From an uncultured Clostridia bacterium (GTDB lineage Bacteria > Bacillota > Clostridia > Oscillospirales > Acutalibacteraceae), in assembly GCA_927362715.1 (NCBI GenBank), contig CAKMIX010000021.1, positions 1 through 48,129 of the forward strand: a stretch of DNA of 48,129 nucleotides, read 5' to 3'. The translations under genes and the position numbers were made by a program. Below the pieces are notes generated by a model. That model was not told where the DNA came from. It made no database searches and saw only the letters and a list, made by a program, of their open reading frames with translations. Below, piece after piece: positions 862 to 14,906 of this stretch; the stretch's first letter is position 1; the number at the start of each line of letters is the position of its first letter.

Positions 862-2088
862 TTACTTTTTATCCGCCAAAAAGCGGCGGCTCCAGCCTTC
901 CTTGTTGACCTGCCGTGCACGCGCAATGCCCAGCGCGTCGGCGGGCACGTCCTCCGTGATGGTGGAACCCGCAGCGGTATACGCGCCGTCGCCCACCTTT
1001 ACGGGCGCAACCAAGTTCGTATTGCAGCCGATAAAAGCGTCGTCGCCGATCGTGGTACGGAACTTCGCTTTGCCCGTATAGTTGACCGTGACCGTGCCGC
1101 AGCCGAAGTTGACGCGCTTGCCGACGTCCGAATCGCCGACATAGGTCAGGTGCGAGACCTTTGTCCCTGTGTCGATGGTGGAATTCTTGACCTCGACGAA
1201 GTTGCCCAAGTGCACGTTCTCGCCGACGACGGAATTCGGGCGGATGTGCACGAACGGCCCGATGTTCACGCCGCCAAGCACGCGGGAACGGTAGCACTGC
1301 GTGCTGTTCAAGACGGCGTTTTCGCCGATCTCGCTGTCCTCTATGAGCGTGTTCGGTCCCAAAACAGACCCTGCGCCCACCGTCGTGCGCCCGCGTAAGA
1401 TCGTACCGGGCAGCAGCGTTGCCCCTGCTTGGACGGTCACGTCGGGGCCGACCAGCACGCCGTCCATAGAGGGGATCTCCACACCCGCGTCCAGAAGGGA
1501 TTCCAAAATACTGCGCCGCACGTAGGCGGTGATCGTGTTGCGGCTGCGCGCCGTGTCGGCGCAAAGCGCAGCCTCCGGGAACGACGCTTCCAGCGTCTGC
1601 ACCTTGCCGCCCGCCTTTTGCAAAATTTCCGACAGTCGCACAAGCGGGCAGCCGTCACTTGTAAGCGGGGCGTTTGCCGCGCTTTCCAGCGCCGACCGGC
1701 GCACCCACGCGGCAAGCAGCGCGCCGCCCTCGCGCGGGCAGCAGAACGCCGTCATATCGTTTTCGTTCTTTTGATGTGCATCATATGCCGCACAGATAAA
1801 CAGTTCATGCATAAGCGGCATATCGCCGCGCAGCAACAGGATGTCGTGCGGCTGTGCGAACACGCGCAGTGCAGCCGTACAAATATTATCCGCATCGTTT
1901 TCCGGCGCCAGGCAATCCGCTCCCGCGTTCTCCGCTAAGGCGCGCACTTCCGTATTTGCCGTCAACACCGTAAGATCCTCGATCTTACAGTCGCGCACCG
2001 CCTCAAGCACCCACAAAAGCGCGGGCTTGAACAAAATCGGCTGTGCTGCGCTCGTTCCCCCGAAAATCATTGCTGCACAAAGATCCAT
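862..2088 (-). CDS. glmU: GlmU-like protein: intact acetyltransferase, degenerate uridylyltransferase
   Basis: GlmU normally acetylates glucosamine-1-P and then couples the product to UTP, giving UDP-GlcNAc. Here the C-terminal left-handed beta-helix (about 205-395 of 408) is well preserved: RPNSVVGENVHLGNFVEVK, the catalytic His in SHLTYVGD (residue 313), FGCGTVTVNYTGK, and DVPADALGIARARQVNKEGW at the end. The N-terminal nucleotidyltransferase domain is short and eroded. The GxGTRM nucleotide loop is replaced by MIFGGTSAAQPI with no arginine, and the Asn-containing GVNNR-type metal motif is replaced by DTARSRNTI; only GDMPLM (89-93) survives. I infer that this protein acetylates GlcN-1-P but probably cannot make UDP-GlcNAc alone. 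It is about 45 residues shorter than typical GlmU. It sits between a small Cys-rich protein and pth. Confidence 0.88.
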   Translation of the reverse strand: MDLCAAMIFGGTSAAQPILFKPALLWVLEAVRDCKIEDLTVLTANTEVRALAENAGADCLAPENDADNICTAALRVFAQPHDILLLRGDMPLMHELFICAAYDAHQKNENDMTAFCCPREGGALLAAWVRRSALESAANAPLTSDGCPLVRLSEILQKAGGKVQTLEASFPEAALCADTARSRNTITAYVRRSILESLLDAGVEIPSMDGVLVGPDVTVQAGATLLPGTILRGRTTVGAGSVLGPNTLIEDSEIGENAVLNSTQCYRSRVLGGVNIGPFVHIRPNSVVGENVHLGNFVEVKNSTIDTGTKVSHLTYVGDSDVGKRVNFGCGTVTVNYTGKAKFRTTIGDDAFIGCNTNLVAPVKVGDGAYTAAGSTITEDVPADALGIARARQVNKEGWSRRFLADKK

Positions 2089-2124
2089 CTGAAATACCTC
2101 CTGTCTGTATGCCGCATAGCAGTA

Positions 2125-2325
2125 TCAGTTTTGCCGCTCGACCATTTTGTATTCTTCGTAAAAACGGAAATACGGGCAGTTCTGCGTGCTGTAAGAAAGG
2201 AAGCTTTGCATTTCGTCCTCGTCGAGGTCGATCTCGCACACATATTGCTCGGTTTCCTCGTCGTAGTCATAATAGGCGCACATGTCGCAGCGCGACTGCG
2301 GCACGACTTCCTGCTTTTTATTCAT
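2125..2325 (-). CDS. Small four-cysteine protein, DUF6472-like
   Basis: A 66-residue acidic protein with four cysteines: C13 and C16 (CDMC), C30 and C50 (NCPYF). The run of acidic residues LDEDE and the CPYF..YEEYKMV ending fit the DUF6472 family of small clostridial proteins as I remember it; function unknown, with a zinc site likely from the cysteines. I chose the ATG at 2325 because it overlaps the stop of the upstream oxidoreductase as ATGA, which indicates translational coupling, and because residues before it belong to the other frame. A GGCGGGG stretch just upstream can serve as ribosome site. It lies in the operon that leads into glmU. Confidence 0.75.
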   Translation of the reverse strand: MNKKQEVVPQSRCDMCAYYDYDEETEQYVCEIDLDEDEMQSFLSYSTQNCPYFRFYEEYKMVERQN

Positions 2326-3881
2326 GCATCCCCGCCTGCTTTCGTTTCGTGGTACGCTTTCTCTGTGTTGACGCTCCACACCGCTGTTTTGTCCGGATCG
2401 CCGCTTATTATGCCGTCAACGGCGGCGAACGCGGTCAGCATGGAGTGATCCATGTTGTTGTAGCGGTGCTGCCCGTTGCGCCCGATGCAGTATAGATTGC
2501 AAAGCCCGTCTAAAAAGCCGCGCACGCGCGGGAGCTCTGCATACGTATCAAAATATGCCGGATAGGCTTTCGGGACTTTTTCGCAGTGGCTGTCTAAAAT
2601 CGGCTCATTTTCGTCCAAAAGCCCGATTTTCACAAGGTCGTCCCGCCCGCGTGCGGCAAGCGTTTTGACATCTGAATTCCAAAAATCGTCGCCCTCGCGG
2701 CAAAAGTATTCGAGTCCCACAAAGACCGTATCCTGCGGATTTTTGACCATATAGGGCGACCAGTTATTGAAGATCTGTACGCGCCCGAGCTTGACGCCCC
2801 GATCCTGCACATAGATCCAGCAGTCGGGGATCAGTGTGCCGAGCGCGCGCATGGTTGTTTCGTTTTTCGGGCGAAGCCGCCGTACAAGCAGCCCGACCGT
2901 CACAAAATCACGGTAGGGAAGCCCCGCCGCCGCAGTCTGCACGCTGTCTGGTACAGCGATGCCCTGCAGCGCCGCGACCAGCTCGCAAAGGGGCATGGAG
3001 GAGAGCACAAAGTCGGCGGGATACGTTTTTAGCCCGTCGCGCTCTTCGGCACACACCGCCGAAAGCTGCCCGTTTTGTGCTTGCAGCGCCGTCACGCGGC
3101 TTTGCAGCACCAAGCGCCCGCCGCGCGCTTGAAATTCCGCCGCCGCGCGCTCCCAAAGCTGGCCTGGGCCGTATTTTGGGTATTTGAATTGTTCAATGAG
3201 CGACGTTTCGCGCGTCTTGCGTTCAAGCCCCAAGGCGTTTTTGAGCACCGCCGCAACAGAAAGCCCCTTGACGCGCTGTGCGCCCCAGTCGGCGGAAATG
3301 ACGGATGGGTGCCGCCCCCAAAGCTTTTCGGTGTAGTCCTCGAAAAACATTTCATATAAAGGCCGCCCGAAACGGTTGATGTAAAAGTTTTCAAGTGAAG
3401 TTTCCGGCCGTTTTTTGACGCACGCGGCAAAATACCCCAAACCTGCACGCATGGTGCGCGCAAGCCCGAGATTGCGGAAGGTCTGCGGTTTTACGGAGAT
3501 CGGATAATCAAAGAATTTACCGAGATAGTATATGCGCGAAACGCGGTCGCGCAGCAGCATGACGCTGTCTGTTTTTTCGGGGTCGGGGCCGCCGGGCAAA
3601 CATGCTTTTTGGCGGTTCAAAAGGCGGTCATCCAAAGCCGGCGCGCCCTGCGTGGGCAGCAGGCTTTCCCAAAAGGCGTTGACGCGCGCATCCTTCGAAA
3701 AAAAGCGGTGACCGCCGATGTCCATACGGTTGCCGTTATGCACGACCGTGCGCGAGATGCCGCCCAAAGCGCTGCTCGCTTCCAGGATCGTGACCGCGTA
3801 TTGCTGCGGCGCGCGGCGCAGGAGCTCAAGCCCTGCCGTCAGCCCTGCCGGACCCGCGCCGATGATAACGATTTGTTGCAT
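2322..3881 (-). CDS. FAD-dependent oxidoreductase, UDP-galactopyranose mutase/amine-oxidase-like
   Basis: The 519-residue protein opens with a dinucleotide-binding fold, VIIGAGPAGLTAG (residues 5-17), the acid at the end of strand 2 (ILEAS) and the GG motif ALGGISRTV, then DIGGHRFFSK near 53-62. This combination is shared by UDP-galactopyranose mutase-like and protoporphyrinogen-oxidase-like flavoproteins often found in cell-surface polysaccharide loci. No signal peptide or membrane segment is visible, so it is cytoplasmic or peripheral. The substrate cannot be told from sequence. It sits between a cyclase-family hydrolase and the DUF6472-like protein, and its stop overlaps the start of the latter by four bases. 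A nucleotide-sugar or polyprenyl-linked sugar substrate is plausible given the envelope genes around it, but that is inference. Confidence 0.75.
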   Translation of the reverse strand: MQQIVIIGAGPAGLTAGLELLRRAPQQYAVTILEASSALGGISRTVVHNGNRMDIGGHRFFSKDARVNAFWESLLPTQGAPALDDRLLNRQKACLPGGPDPEKTDSVMLLRDRVSRIYYLGKFFDYPISVKPQTFRNLGLARTMRAGLGYFAACVKKRPETSLENFYINRFGRPLYEMFFEDYTEKLWGRHPSVISADWGAQRVKGLSVAAVLKNALGLERKTRETSLIEQFKYPKYGPGQLWERAAAEFQARGGRLVLQSRVTALQAQNGQLSAVCAEERDGLKTYPADFVLSSMPLCELVAALQGIAVPDSVQTAAAGLPYRDFVTVGLLVRRLRPKNETTMRALGTLIPDCWIYVQDRGVKLGRVQIFNNWSPYMVKNPQDTVFVGLEYFCREGDDFWNSDVKTLAARGRDDLVKIGLLDENEPILDSHCEKVPKAYPAYFDTYAELPRVRGFLDGLCNLYCIGRNGQHRYNNMDHSMLTAFAAVDGIISGDPDKTAVWSVNTEKAYHETKAGGDA

Positions 3882-9943: not shown

Positions 9944-10485
9944 ACCAAGCCCTCCCGTACCAGCTGATAGGTTTTTAAGATGCCGACCTGCGTTTTCGCG
10001 TCGGCGATTTTATTTTCCATGACCATTTGAAAAGCTTTTTCAAGCGGGATGCGGCGCAGCTCTAAAAATTCGTCGTCATCGGGGTGCTGCGCCGAAAAGG
10101 TGAGGTCCGTTGCCAGATACAGGTGGATGATCTCGCCGCAGTAGCCGGGCGTGGGATACAGCTTCCCGAGGGATCGATAGTCCTTTGCGGCGGCGCCCGT
10201 TTCCTCCTGCAGTTCCCGCTTGCCCGCTTCCAACGGGTCTTCGCCGTATTCAAGCTTGCCGGCGGGCAGTTCAAGAACGACCTCGCCGTAAGGGTAACGG
10301 AACTGTTCAACAAACAAAAGCTCCTCTTGCTCGGTCAGCGCGGCAATGCATACGCCGCCCGGATGTTCGACGACCTCACGCTTTGCAGTCCTGCCGTCGG
10401 GAAGCATAGCGTCGTCTACGCGCATATTGATAATGCGTCCTTTGTAAATGTAGGATTTGCCGAGCGTTTTTTCCGTCAGATCCAT
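9940..10485 (-). CDS. Nudix hydrolase, ADP-ribose pyrophosphatase type
   Basis: 181 residues with a complete Nudix box: G76, E82 and R90-E91-L92-Q93-E94-E95-T96-G97, exactly Gx5Ex7REUxEExGU. The part before it (YKGRIINMRVDDAMLPDG, EVVEHPGGVCIAAL) and QFRYPYGEVVLELPAGKLEYG match ADP-ribose pyrophosphatases of the NudF/YqkG type, which split ADP-ribose to AMP and ribose-5-phosphate. A good ribosome site (AAAGGAGG) lies upstream of the ATG, about 11 nt away. It is the first gene of the Nudix-Maf-patatin unit and is divergent from the degenerate M14 peptidase gene. No clear promoter was identified in the short gap. Confidence 0.93.
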   Translation of the reverse strand: MDLTEKTLGKSYIYKGRIINMRVDDAMLPDGRTAKREVVEHPGGVCIAALTEQEELLFVEQFRYPYGEVVLELPAGKLEYGEDPLEAGKRELQEETGAAAKDYRSLGKLYPTPGYCGEIIHLYLATDLTFSAQHPDDDEFLELRRIPLEKAFQMVMENKIADAKTQVGILKTYQLVREGLV

Positions 10486-10564
10486 ACTAATTGCGGCCTC
10501 CTTTGCATATATGTGAAATGTGGGACTTGCCCCACAAGTTATCGCCAGAAAGTTGGAGTTTTGT

Positions 10565-11464
10565 ATGTCGGTCGAGTACGAACCTTTTACTTACCCATAT
10601 GCCAAGCGGCTTTGCGCACAGCTGCTGAATAAGTATCCGTTTGCCGCCGTTTCGGTGCTCGGCAGGACGGTCTCGAAGCGCGCGATCTTTGCGCTGTCTG
10701 CGGGCGATGCGTCCGGAGAATCGGTTTTGTTCGTGTCGGGGCTTTCCGGTGCGGACGGTGTGCAGAGCCTGCTTTTATACCGCTTCTTTGAGCGGATCTG
10801 CCATGCGACGGCGCACGACGGCACACTTTGCGGTGTAAAGCTGCGAAAGTCCCTGCGCGGCAGGCGCGTGGTGATCGTGCCGTGCTTGAACCCGGATGCG
10901 CCGGAGATCCGCCGGGCGGGTCCCTTAGGCGCGGGAACATACGCAGGCATGGTGAGCCGCGCGGGCACGGAGGATTATTCGCACTGGTGCGCCAATGCGC
11001 GCGGGGTACATATCGAGCACAATTTTGCCTTCTGCCATACGCCGTACCCGTTTCAGACAGCCGGCGCCAAAACAGACGGGGACACGGTATATGCGGGTCC
11101 CGCCCCCGAAAGCGAAGCGGAAACGCAGGCGCTCGTGCGCCTTTGCCGCAGCACGCCGTTTCGGCACGGCATTTTGCTGCACGGCACGGGCGGGCGCGTT
11201 TTCGGGAGCACGCCCGTCTCGCCTGCGACCAACGACGATGTGCCGCTGATGGCGCGCATCCTCGCTGCGGCAGGGGAGTATACGCTGTCTGCAAAAACGC
11301 CGCCGCTTTCCTGCGGGAGCTTCCCCGAATGGTTTTCCGCCGACTGCGGCGCACCCGCATTTGAGCTGTCCGCCGTGCGCGCCGCCGAGCCGGAGACGCA
11401 GGCGGAGTTTGACGCGCTTTGGCAGGAGACGCAGGAGGTCTTGCTGCTGTCGGCTATGCTGTAA
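10565..11464 (+). CDS. Degenerate M14 carboxypeptidase-like protein (probable pseudoenzyme)
   Basis: About 299 residues. Alignment by eye to clostridial M14 peptidases (gamma-D-Glu-L-diamino acid type) is clear along the whole length: VVIVPCLNPDAPEI, WCANARGVHIEHNF, YAGPAPESEAETQALVRL, ILLHGTGGRVFG and FPEWFSADCGAPAFEL. The zinc site is damaged. The usual HGxE block is replaced by SGAD (in GLSGADGVQSLLLYRF), losing the His ligand and changing the Glu, and the substrate Arg in DLNRNF/DLNHNF-like blocks reads HIEHNF. The last zinc His (LLHGTG) and possibly the catalytic Glu (PAFEL) remain. I infer loss of peptidase activity with retained fold. Start chosen at the ATG at 10565, with GGAG 6 nt upstream. 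It ends 4 nt from the convergent ubiquitin-fusion gene. Confidence 0.7.
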   Translation: MSVEYEPFTYPYAKRLCAQLLNKYPFAAVSVLGRTVSKRAIFALSAGDASGESVLFVSGLSGADGVQSLLLYRFFERICHATAHDGTLCGVKLRKSLRGRRVVIVPCLNPDAPEIRRAGPLGAGTYAGMVSRAGTEDYSHWCANARGVHIEHNFAFCHTPYPFQTAGAKTDGDTVYAGPAPESEAETQALVRLCRSTPFRHGILLHGTGGRVFGSTPVSPATNDDVPLMARILAAAGEYTLSAKTPPLSCGSFPEWFSADCGAPAFELSAVRAAEPETQAEFDALWQETQEVLLLSAML

Positions 11465-11468
11465 AACG

Positions 11469-12186
11469 CTATGCGGCCTCTACGGTGTAGATCAATGTGG
11501 TTCGGTATGCCCCAACGGGTACGGCGTCCCACGCCGCCTGTGCGATCGAAAAGGTGACGGCGGCGGAATCCTGCGCGCCGTTTGTCACGGCGGGGAAGGT
11601 TTGGCTGGCGTTTGTGAGCGCGGAATATGCGATCCCCGCGTAGCCCGCCGCCTGGGCTTCTGCATTTGTGAACAGCCGTTCGCCCTCGGGCGTGACCGAC
11701 ACGTTCAGCTGCTGCCCGATGCCGAGTTTGGTTTCCACTGTGTACCCTGCATCAATGGGAGCGGTCGTGCCCCACGCCACCGAGAAATCGGCGGGGATGG
11801 TCACGGTATAGGAAATGTCCGTTTCCGAAAAAGTCGTGACCACCTGCGCATCTACTGCGGCGGGGCTGCCGTCCTCGAACGTTATGGTATAAACCTGTTC
11901 GTCGATGAGCATATGCAGGGTGCTGTCTTTTTGAATGTTGTAATCCTGTAAGGTATGGCCGTCCTCTAAGGTTTTCCCTGCGAAGATCAGGGTCTGTTGT
12001 TCGGCGGGAGTCCCGACTTCTTCCTCGATCTTTGCTTTGACGTCATCAATTGTGTCTGTCCGATCGACCTCCAGAATGATGTGCTTGCCGGTGGGCGTTT
12101 TTACAAAGATCTGCATGGCAAAAGCGGGCACGCACAGCGCGTAGAGCAGCACGGCGGTCAATAGAAAACTGAGCAGTTTTTTTCAT
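11469..12186 (-). CDS. Secreted ubiquitin-domain fusion protein (leader frameshifted by an A7 tract)
   Basis: The part from 12116 down encodes [12 protein letters not shown]..., co-linear with human ubiquitin over 72 residues with no gap; 48 of 72 are identical by hand count. K6, K11, K27, K29, K48 and K63, I44, H68, NIQK and STLH are kept; K33, R42 and R72 are lost and the RLRGG tail is absent. About 143 more residues follow (beta-rich, ending [20 protein letters not shown]), a domain I do not recognise. Upstream, the ATG at 12186 has AAGGGGG at good spacing. Dropping one A from the A7 run at 12177-12183 gives a classic signal peptide starting [14 protein letters not shown] and ending CVPAFA, cut exactly before ubiquitin Met1. 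As written, the leader is +1 out of frame. Other starts (TTG 12161, CTG 12176) would give a poorer leader. murD ends 10 nt upstream, so the gene lies in the murL-murD operon. Confidence 0.85.
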
Positions 12187-12196
12187 GGTGTCCCCC

Positions 12197-13492
12197 TTAT
12201 TTATCTGCGTATTGTTTGACGAGCAATTTGAAATGCCGTCCCTTTTCCTCAAAGTTTTTATAGACGTTATAGCTTGATGCGGCGGGGGAGAGCAGACAGC
12301 TTTTCCCCGCTGCTGTATATCGGTACGCAAGACGCACCGCCTCGTCGAGATCGGCGGCGGTGACAGCGTTCTTTTCGGGATTCAGCGCCTGCACGGCGCG
12401 CACGACGGCAAAGCCCGTTTCGGGCGTGCCGATGATGTTGCGGATCCCGCTTTCGGCAAGCGCGCGGTCGAAGCCTGCGTAAGAGATGCCGCGGTCCATG
12501 CCGCCGACAATGAGCGTGTCCACGTTGCCGATCGCCTCGACCGCACACAGCACGGCGTGCGGGATGGTGGCGATGCAATCGTTGTAAAAGGTGATTCCCC
12601 GGAACGTGCCGACCTTTTCCATGCGGTGCTCGATGCCCGCAAAGCTTTGCACGGCGCGTTCAACCTGTTCGTCCGTCACGCCGAACCGCTTGGCAGCGGC
12701 GCGGGCAAACAGCACATCCTGGCGGTTGTGCCGCCCTGCAAGGTGTTCGTTTGCGATGGCAAAAGGCAAGGCGTCGTCCGCGCGGATCCCCAGCTTTTCG
12801 GCAGGCGTGCCGGCAACGCCTTCGAATGCGTCCAAGCCCTGATCCGCGTTGTAAATGAGCAGATCGCCCGCTTTCTGGTAGAGCGCAATGTGCGACTTTG
12901 CCCGCGCATAGCCCGCAAATCCGCCGCGGTAGTGCTCCAAATGCTCCTCATAGAGATTTGTAATGACGGCGACCTCGGGGGACGTGTGTGTAAACTCCAA
13001 CTGGTGCGACGACATTTCGATGACGGCAATGCTGTTTTCCGTAACTTCCTCAAGCGCCTCGAACACGGGCACGCCGATGTTGCCGATCAGGCGGCTGTCC
13101 TTTCCCGCCGCTTGCAAACACAGGTGTATGAGCGTCGAGGTCGTGGTCTTGCCCTTCGAGCCGGTGATGCCGATTTTGCGGCAGGGCGCGAAGCGCAGGA
13201 ACAGGTCAACCTGGCAGGTGATTTCGGCATGCCCCGTATCCCGCACGTCCTTAAACGAAATGCCGGGGCTTTTGAGCACCACGTCGTAGTCGGCAAGGTG
13301 CGAAAGGTAATCCGCGCCGCTGAAAACCGTGACGTGCGCGTCGTCTACGAAAACCGGATTTTTGTCCGCGACGGCGATCGCCTTTTCGGGAAAAAAGCGG
13401 CGGATATAGCGGTAGGACGACTGCCCCTCGCGCCCGAAGCCGACGAGCAGCACGGTCTTGTTTTGCAGGTATTCAGCAATCGGCGGCAACAA
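12197..13492 (-). CDS. murD: MurD-type UDP-MurNAc-L-Ala:glutamate ligase, probably the L-Glu-adding MurD2
   Basis: Mur ligase of 431 residues: Rossmann-like N terminus (VLLVGFGREGQSS), ATP loop ITGSKGKTTTST (about 109-120), central-domain VITNLYEEHLEHY, and the C-terminal block HRMEKVGTFRGITFYND followed by VGGMDRG. It adds glutamate to UDP-MurNAc-L-Ala in peptidoglycan precursor synthesis. Directly upstream, overlapping by 20 nt, is murL, whose product epimerises the terminal L-Glu after ligation; in Xanthomonas oryzae the partner ligase (MurD2) uses L-Glu. The NDCIATIPHA segment differs from NDSKATNP of ordinary MurD, which I take as support for the MurD2 type. The start is a TTG at 13492 with AAGGAG 10 nt upstream. 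Standard D-Glu-using MurD is the alternative. Confidence 0.85.
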   Translation of the reverse strand: MLPPIAEYLQNKTVLLVGFGREGQSSYRYIRRFFPEKAIAVADKNPVFVDDAHVTVFSGADYLSHLADYDVVLKSPGISFKDVRDTGHAEITCQVDLFLRFAPCRKIGITGSKGKTTTSTLIHLCLQAAGKDSRLIGNIGVPVFEALEEVTENSIAVIEMSSHQLEFTHTSPEVAVITNLYEEHLEHYRGGFAGYARAKSHIALYQKAGDLLIYNADQGLDAFEGVAGTPAEKLGIRADDALPFAIANEHLAGRHNRQDVLFARAAAKRFGVTDEQVERAVQSFAGIEHRMEKVGTFRGITFYNDCIATIPHAVLCAVEAIGNVDTLIVGGMDRGISYAGFDRALAESGIRNIIGTPETGFAVVRAVQALNPEKNAVTAADLDEAVRLAYRYTAAGKSCLLSPAASSYNVYKNFEEKGRHFKLLVKQYADK

Positions 13493-14855
13493 AGCGATAC
13501 ATCTCCTTTACGGCGGGCAGAAAAGCGGCGGGAATATTGTGCTGCGGGTTCCAATATTGCAGCGGGTTTTCGTCAGGCCTTTGTGCGCGCGCGCAGAAAT
13601 GCGCCAAAAGCGCGGGCAGCTTTCGCCCCTCGTTTTGCAGCTTTTCGGCGGTCATCCAAAGCGCGGCGACGATCTCCGACGCCGTACCCACGCACTCAAA
13701 CGGCTTGACGGGCGCAAACCCGCAGAGGCCCTCAAAATCCGCAAGCAGGTCGCGGTCATCCAAAAGATCCGCCCCGAAAATTTCACACAGGCGGTCGTAA
13801 TCCATAAACGGGGAAAGGATGGAAAACACGAACAGGCATTTCGCGCACTTGCCGCACCAGACATTCTGCTTGCTCCCGCGGTTGCAGCTGCGGAACGTGT
13901 CGTGGTACTGCGGCAAAGCGGCGAATTGTTTTGCGATCTGCAATTCCGTGAAGGGGCGCAGCAGGCTGAAATAGCGAATTTCATCCGTGAGGCGACGCGC
14001 GCAGTACGCGGCAAAATCGCATTCAAAATCGTAGGATTTGGAATACTGGTGGTTGACTTCAGTCCCCGCGATGTTCGATTCGTTCGCGCTTGCTTCGTTG
14101 GAGAGCACGATGTCCGTCGCCCCGATGAGATAGGCGCAGTAGTAGGAAAGAAAGGCGACGATCGCCGAAAACGGCGTGTGCCCGTTTAAAAAGCCCTTGG
14201 CGTTTAAATCCAAAAGTGTGCGGTCAATGGTGCGGTAGGCGCGCACGATCTCTTGTTCCGTGTACCCCGCCGCCAGCACCGTATCGGTGCGCGCTTTCTG
14301 GTCGTTGACCGTGAAAAAGCGGTTCTTTTCGGGATCGCCGTGTAAGAGCGAAGCGGTCACGCAGCTATCCTTGCCGCCGCCCACGGGGACAAGGCGCAGC
14401 CCCGCCGAACGAAAGGCGGGGATGTTTTCCGCTTTGGGCGTGTGCTTGCAGACCGAGACGAGCTCCATAAAATCGTCCTCGGTCGCCCTGATGCCGTTTC
14501 GATAGAAAAACTCCGAAAGCCCGCGGAAATACAGGCGCTTCCAAAAATGAATGTCCTCATCGGAAAGTGCACCGCAGTGCACCTCGACGCGCTTCGGGCA
14601 GGCAGCTTTCCAATAGCTGACGAGCTCCACCATCCCCAGCGCGAACACCACGCGGCGCGCAAGCGGGGAATCCGGGTCGTTTAAAAGGTTCAGATTTTCC
14701 GTTTCGATCTCGGTCGTCGGCGCAAAGCGGCAAAGCCCCTTTACGGAAAAATGAAAGGTCAGCCGCACGCGCGTACCCGCGCGTGTGATCGTGTAATCGT
14801 CATAAGAAAATACGGGATATTGCTTTCGTAAGTCTTCAAACTGTTGTTGGGGCAT
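13473..14855 (-). CDS. murL: MurL, UDP-MurNAc-L-Ala-L-Glu epimerase
   Basis: The 460-residue protein has the PP-loop-like motif VGGGKDS (158-164), the block NGHTPFSAIVAFLSYYCAYL, NEASANESNI, and a C-terminal cysteine cluster CNRG...WCGKCAKC that likely binds a metal. This set matches MurL, which activates the terminal L-Glu of UDP-MurNAc-L-Ala-L-Glu with ATP and inverts it to D-Glu, making glutamate racemase MurI unnecessary. Coupling to a MurD-type ligase through a 20-nt overlap strongly supports the assignment. I start at the ATG at 14855, which has GGGAGGG just upstream and lies ~16 nt from the predicted transcription start; the longer reading to 14906 would run into the promoter. No signal peptide. 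Confidence 0.82.
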   Translation of the reverse strand: MPQQQFEDLRKQYPVFSYDDYTITRAGTRVRLTFHFSVKGLCRFAPTTEIETENLNLLNDPDSPLARRVVFALGMVELVSYWKAACPKRVEVHCGALSDEDIHFWKRLYFRGLSEFFYRNGIRATEDDFMELVSVCKHTPKAENIPAFRSAGLRLVPVGGGKDSCVTASLLHGDPEKNRFFTVNDQKARTDTVLAAGYTEQEIVRAYRTIDRTLLDLNAKGFLNGHTPFSAIVAFLSYYCAYLIGATDIVLSNEASANESNIAGTEVNHQYSKSYDFECDFAAYCARRLTDEIRYFSLLRPFTELQIAKQFAALPQYHDTFRSCNRGSKQNVWCGKCAKCLFVFSILSPFMDYDRLCEIFGADLLDDRDLLADFEGLCGFAPVKPFECVGTASEIVAALWMTAEKLQNEGRKLPALLAHFCARAQRPDENPLQYWNPQHNIPAAFLPAVKEMYRFVAADC

Positions 14856-14877
14856 ACGATCCCTCCCATTCTTTTCT

Positions 14878-14906
14878 ATTATACGAAGAAACCGACGCGA
14901 ATGCAA
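14878..14906 (-). promoter_or_regulatory. Promoter of the murL-murD-ubiquitin operon
   Basis: Minus-strand TTGCAT at 14901-14906, a 17-nt spacer and a perfect TATAAT at 14878-14883. Predicted start near 14871 leaves a very short leader of about 16 nt before the murL ATG. No other promoter was seen before murD or the ubiquitin gene. Confidence 0.75.

Follow-up and report, generated by a model that had tools for sequence, protein, structure and literature searches.

What does a ubiquitin do in a gut clostridium, in a protein that seems designed for export and is encoded beside genes for peptidoglycan synthesis? This question is raised by a 48,129-nucleotide stretch of DNA (the window) from an uncultured member of the Acutalibacteraceae, whose genome we call G000. 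A sequence-only reading had placed a ubiquitin at positions 11901..12116; the coordinates were correct, but the gene lies on the minus strand. The same reading had proposed HMM and sequence searches, and when run these confirmed a ubiquitin and found bacterial relatives. The match of the 72-residue domain to the Pfam profile PF00240 had an E value of 6.1e-26 (90.4 bits; cut-off 25.4) and covered profile positions 1-70 of 72, and among 389 distinct matches in a PDB sequence search at E ≤ 0.001 the best 60 were ubiquitins, ubiquitin fusions or engineered variants. Aligned with human ubiquitin, the domain is identical at 48 of 72 residues (67%) without a gap, as had been counted by hand, and a beta-grasp fold can safely be assigned to it from this level of identity to many solved ubiquitins. 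K6, K11, K27, K29, K48, K63, I44 and H68 are the same as in the human protein, and K33, R42 and R72 are replaced by Glu, Thr and Asp, again as had been read. The I44 patch, which had been taken as retained, keeps I44 and H68, but L8P and V70L alter half of it. In addition, the Gly-Gly is absent, residues 70-76 being LIDEQVY. Because the Gly-Gly is missing and both R42 and R72 are lost, the usual conjugation is ruled out, in line with the earlier claim, and conjugation of any kind appears very unlikely. The window version therefore differs from eukaryotic ubiquitin in its tail, in these two arginines and in its export design, and the data support a true ubiquitin-type domain within a bacterial protein designed for export.

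The open reading frame as listed (11469..12161, minus strand, stop included) encodes 230 amino acids from a TTG start and comprises a signal-peptide-like end, the ubiquitin and a C-terminal beta-domain of 143 residues (11472..11900, minus strand), whose fold is suggested by its sequence pattern. The TTG at 12161 leaves 15 residues ahead of the ubiquitin Met1. Directly before this Met1, an open frame of 22 codons (12117..12182, minus strand) reads as a typical signal peptide end, and the mature part would have 215 residues and no Cys. An ATG behind a G-rich Shine-Dalgarno-like stretch (12184..12186, minus strand) is out of frame with the ubiquitin domain, and the two frames diverge at a run of A. 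In the related genomes G012, G019 and G024 an in-frame ATG is present and the signal peptide ends at Met1 of the ubiquitin; the in-frame ATG is absent in G000 and G025. Thus, the proposal that the ubiquitin forms the mature N terminus holds for these three relatives and for the open frame of the window, but the window ATG is in another frame. Because of this ATG the window copy is possibly unexpressed; it may be silent, may start from the TTG, or may vary within the population. A promoter scan between murD and the ubiquitin gene, by a weak method, found none.

Directly upstream lies a murD-like ligase gene (12197..13492, minus strand; TIGR01087, 5.9e-83, 279.4 bits, cut-off 211.95), and downstream a convergent gene for an M14 zinc carboxypeptidase-like protein (10520..11464, plus strand; PF00246, 1.3e-10). 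NUDIX, Maf, patatin and EF-G-like genes are also found around the locus. Immediately before the murD-like gene we observed a MurL-like gene (13473-14906, minus strand; NF041275, 262.8 bits, below the cut-off of 700), and this pair could represent an L-glutamate ligase plus epimerase route in a clostridium. In bacterial ubiquitin-like conjugation operons, genes for E1, E2 and deubiquitinase adjoin the ubiquitin-like gene; unlike these operons, the window locus has none of them among its neighbours. PADLOC gave no match for the three proteins scanned. The E2 profile PF00179 matched none of the 39 genomes of the genus in a search that had no positive control, since the control genomes gave no match either.

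Within the genus, presence of the ubiquitin gene is patchy: PF00240 exceeded its cut-off in 5 of the 39 genomes, always downstream of murD and always with an open ubiquitin-gene frame. Among the holders is G024, whose murD shows 69% identity and which has the gene at the same murD-adjacent site. In G014 and G003, murD directly adjoins the M14 gene without a ubiquitin gene between them, and the coordinates give the same arrangement in G001, G060 and G002. In G059 a deletion has left a relic, in which the first part of the signal peptide runs straight into the final part of the carrier domain. The common ancestor of G000, G025 and G059, if not an older one, therefore had the gene, and G059 lost it. 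The idea of a peptidoglycan operon thus fits the murD and MurL-like genes upstream on the same strand, but not the M14 gene on the opposite strand or the murD/M14 sites without ubiquitin, and the murein-gene neighbourhood looks incidental. A chimeric assembly or eukaryotic contamination, the former named by the sequence-only reading among its refuting cases, was excluded by synteny, with the murD site shared by five independent genomes of the genus and the same design present on the complete plasmid of the isolate Ruminococcus albus 7. A candidate for a second ubiquitin in G000 (C18, 21 bits, under the cut-off) was rejected, being a lysine-rich 114-residue protein with no resemblance by eye.

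Comparison of the five holders indicated that the G000 ubiquitin gene is recently exchanged between related species. In the flanks, G000 is closer to its sister G019 (identity 0.924 over 12191-14880 upstream and 0.948 over 9961-11460 downstream) than to G012 (0.838 and 0.792, respectively). Within the gene this order is reversed. A first block (11875..12182, minus strand) is near-identical to G012, with identical runs at 12182-12086 and 12060-11875 between flanks of 79-84%; over 12190-11881, G000 matches G012 at 306 of 309 bases and G019 at 253 (0.82). A second block (11515..11719, minus strand) contains 205 bases identical with G012, and at the end of the gene (11700-11521) the matches are 180/180 to G012 and 164/180 to G019. 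The middle segment (11880-11701), with identities of 0.822 to G012 and 0.811 to G019, indicates either that the donor was a mosaic or that a second event took place. At an identity of 0.849, the chance of at least 298 matches in 300 bases is 7e-19 if sites are assumed to be independent. When 100-base bins were compared with G012, none of 162 outside the gene reached 0.98 (the best was 0.97), while 4 of 7 inside were at 0.98 or above; compared with G019, bins below 0.85 made up 4 of 150 outside and 3 of 7 inside. The synonymous divergence between G000 and G012 is zero for the ubiquitin (70 codons) and 0.71 for murD, and the ubiquitin dN/dS lies between 0.10 and 0.23 in the nine other pairs of the genus. 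Because G012 and G019 are roughly as different in the first block (identity 0.816) as they are in the flanks (0.80-0.85), the simplest view is that G000 received a G012-like allele. The trace is confined to the ubiquitin gene within about 17 kb. Of 70 ubiquitin sites, 18 differ between the two alleles; 17 of these lie outside the core, which falls short of significance (p = 0.07). The start of the G000 gene was probably disturbed after or together with this exchange.

For the carrier part of the window protein, no Pfam family exceeded its cut-off, an SCPU match appeared in one of 12 members of the carrier family (E 0.0014), and PDB matches were weak and partly caused by signal peptides. By tblastn, five paralogous matches were found on contig C14 of G000. 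On this contig (L034, 1001-11330) seven secreted carrier-domain proteins of 150-167 residues each are encoded in a row. Ahead of the row is a 1,877-residue protein whose residues 1741-1871 match the carrier profile (4e-14, signal peptides removed), and after it comes a protein of 316 residues with a hydrophobic stretch at the C terminus; that the latter anchors the array is a guess. The R. albus 7 protein WP_013483628.1, annotated as 'ubiquitin family protein' on plasmid pRUMAL01, has the same order of signal peptide, ubiquitin and beta-domain as the window protein, but its gene is inside a carrier array on the plasmid and its ubiquitin falls outside the tree group of the window ubiquitin. The row of carrier domains on pRUMAL01 resembles the C14 array. 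With signal peptides removed, the C14 profile matched R. albus RS18510 (8.7e-19), RS18520, RS18535 and RS18540, as well as the part of RS21475 behind its ubiquitin (1.3e-6). Because a direct comparison of the window and R. albus carrier parts was not significant (E 0.12), the link between them runs through the family.

A ubiquitin in a clostridial peptidoglycan operon had been noted as unfamiliar, but the gene is no isolated clostridial case, since one pattern scan of genome contigs found 20 loci and the R. albus gene was already annotated as ubiquitin. These 20 loci come from Clostridia, Erysipelotrichaceae, Bacteroidota, alpha-, beta- and gammaproteobacteria, Verrucomicrobiota, Coriobacteriaceae and one actinobacterium. 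In unbiased profile searches of sampled genomes, counting PF00240 matches over the cut-off and excluding the centre genomes, the ubiquitin profile was found in 4 of 390 genomes of the class Clostridia (about 1%), in 3 of 397 of the window's own phylum (two of the three weak), in 3 of 295 of Bacteroidota, the phylum of Parabacteroides An277 (about 1%), in 6 of 220 of the phylum of a Verrucomicrobiales MAG (2.7%), in 1 of 278 of the phylum of Hoeflea (a weak match with no signal peptide) and in 1 of 197 of the phylum of an actinobacterium. This last genome (L085, G1735) has two genes without a signal peptide, one of them in a broken frame; its two ubiquitin-like stretches are neighbours. None of 14 control genomes matched. 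Three of 72,556 plasmid records matched. A phage origin was rejected, as 0 of 50,697 phage records matched; two near-identical contigs labelled viral (L087 and L088) carry a signal peptide-ubiquitin-autotransporter gene and may be mislabelled bacterial DNA.

A signal-peptide-like stretch ends 0-4 residues before the ubiquitin in 44 of 47 genes, with an offset of 0 in 43, and the offset-0 test passed at 131 of 15,964 downstream control positions; L021 and both G1735 genes do not follow this placement. The test was home-made and applied to open frames, so that the window and G025 are counted despite having no in-frame ATG, and the 47 genes correspond to 48 rows with one double and include both near-duplicates L087 and L088. 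Left out were L014 (whose contig is shared with L009), second copies (L083, L046 and L047-L066) and weak PF00240 matches (L012, L013, L044, L045, L068, L069, L070 and L076). Among the latter, L068 (28.0 bits) and L069 (25.8 bits) pass the cut-off, L069 has an internal stop and L076 has no signal peptide. Among 17 proteins chosen from the 47 genes and scanned, nine contain a recognised domain for sorting or anchoring: T9SS tails (L017, L028 and L029), autotransporters (L018, L026 and L087), PEP-CTERM (L082), VPDSG-CTERM (L027) and SLH (L041). The L041 protein (1495-3216, G220) is an exported ubiquitin that retains LRLRGG and is followed by FN3 and S-layer homology domains. Two exported ubiquitin genes stand in tandem in G070 (L040) and likewise in G1564 (L077). 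No partner or immunity gene recurs near the ubiquitin genes, the groups present at more than three of 24 loci overlapping the ubiquitin gene itself by coordinates. The literature matches listed include none that deals with further bacterial surface proteins containing a ubiquitin domain.

A phylogeny had been suggested to date the transfer. We built a tree from 44 bacterial sequences and human ubiquitin over 71 columns, leaving out L085, L085b, L088 and a double row of L072. It placed the window ubiquitin in a group of 11 (support 96/93) made up of Bacillota and Parabacteroides An277, with human ubiquitin outside, and because of this grouping a recent gift from an animal host is unlikely, although 71 columns resolve little and only 5 of 42 inner branches are well supported. 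The G024 ubiquitin has its partner in L023 (97/90) and not in its own genus, which could reflect a further exchange. Residues were compared over 43 bacterial ubiquitins, L021 being left out as well. The match to human ubiquitin was 0.92 for core sites, 0.81 for lysines, 0.74 for other surface sites and 0.40 for R42/R72; the I44-patch sites matched in 0.53 of cases, and in 0.73 among the 22 profile-found genes; the eight-base-pattern scan favoured P8. A conserved core and lysines, with a weaker I44 patch and weak R42/R72, speak for a folded domain that would work without conjugation.

The nearest described parallel is, as had been suggested, BfUbb (gene ubb) of Bacteroides fragilis. BfUbb is secreted, cut directly before Met1, lacks Gly-Gly and is patchy among strains (PMC5705921, PMC3352274); it inhibits B. 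fragilis strains and needs no immunity or partner gene (PMC5705921), and in vitro it inhibited ubiquitination and bound human E1 covalently (PMC3352274). B. fragilis has been termed 'one of a few bacteria' with ubiquitin (PMC5705921). The window gene shares the missing Gly-Gly and the patchiness; a signal peptide ending at Met1 is read in G012, G019 and G024, and in the window in an open frame that has no in-frame ATG. BfUbb is a stand-alone protein of 76 residues that ends in Cys and has shown antibacterial activity in tests, whereas the window protein, from Bacillota, is fused to a putative beta-domain and has no Cys in its mature part. The secreted ubiquitin of Globodera nematodes also has a signal sequence and a C-terminal extension, but it belongs to a eukaryote and has another carrier, and its 12-residue extension is removed in the plant (PMC5705921).

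What, then, might such a protein do? An exported ubiquitin could engage or block E1/E2 enzymes, deubiquitinases or ubiquitin receptors of a host, or act extracellularly on host cells. Six of seven lysines, I44 and H68 are retained, record titles suggest gut association of several holders, and the in vitro effects of BfUbb on human E1 and ubiquitination (PMC3352274) agree with such mimicry. We nevertheless consider it unlikely, given the changes L8P, V70L, R42T and R72D, an I44 patch less well conserved across the class than either the core or the other surface, the lack of a known route into host cells and the many holders that are free-living by name (Hoeflea, Thiocapsa, Lutibacter and Belliella); interaction with other bacteria would account no less well for alleles having passed between related species. 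Somewhat less doubtful is a structural or adhesive role, in which a very stable beta-grasp fold would cap the N terminus of surface proteins with no ubiquitin-specific partner. Such a role would suit the well-conserved core, the great diversity of carriers, about half of those scanned having a sorting or anchoring domain, and the tandem array of the same carrier, but the exact placement after the signal peptide and the retained surface lysines exceed the needs of a cap, and gene-scale exchange also argues against it. The most improbable of these alternatives is that the gene is a decaying or selfish passenger, occasionally acquired, of little function in the genus and being lost. Its rarity among the 39 genomes, the two of five holders without an in-frame ATG, the G059 relic and the GC content of the ubiquitin domain (0.49, against 0.58-0.63 in its neighbours) accord with a passenger; the low dN/dS, the open frames in all five holders and the retention of one site from G024 to G000 do not.

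Tentatively, we prefer to see the ubiquitin as a binding module that is exported and exchangeable and that, like BfUbb, most likely serves competition among related bacteria. Competition is put first because exchange of alleles, patchy presence and relics are expected of a gene for rivalry or recognition, although exchange by itself does not identify what is selected. The window gene would then belong to a scattered class of bacterial genes for secreted or surface proteins whose free N terminus is an exported ubiquitin domain. Cleavage of the signal peptide just before Met1 would expose a ubiquitin without a conjugation tail, carried by a beta-domain; elsewhere in the genome this domain is encoded in tandem as a series of small secreted proteins, and it may build a surface layer or bind to one. 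Outside the cell, the ubiquitin domain could serve as a folded, protease-resistant ligand that binds some target on related competitors, in the manner of BfUbb in B. fragilis, and its variable surface may set which strains are hit or recognised. The target of BfUbb is reportedly a peptidyl-prolyl isomerase. Several observations stand against competition: G000 and G025 have no in-frame ATG and G059 holds a relic, so the gene may be non-essential or in decay; BfUbb is stand-alone with a terminal Cys; no immunity or partner gene recurs; and many carriers of the class are large adhesin-like proteins.

On a broader scale, ubiquitin in several phyla may, with the same reserve, be a general and exchangeable free N-terminal tip of secreted or surface proteins, held by each lineage's own anchor and used in recognition or killing among related bacteria. 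The class of secreted ubiquitins spans Clostridia, Erysipelotrichaceae, Bacteroidota, Verrucomicrobiota, Coriobacteriaceae and several Pseudomonadota, and uses nearly every common anchoring route. R. albus 7 is a culturable isolate that carries such a gene. If the class works like BfUbb, it would represent a widespread and overlooked weapon or recognition system.
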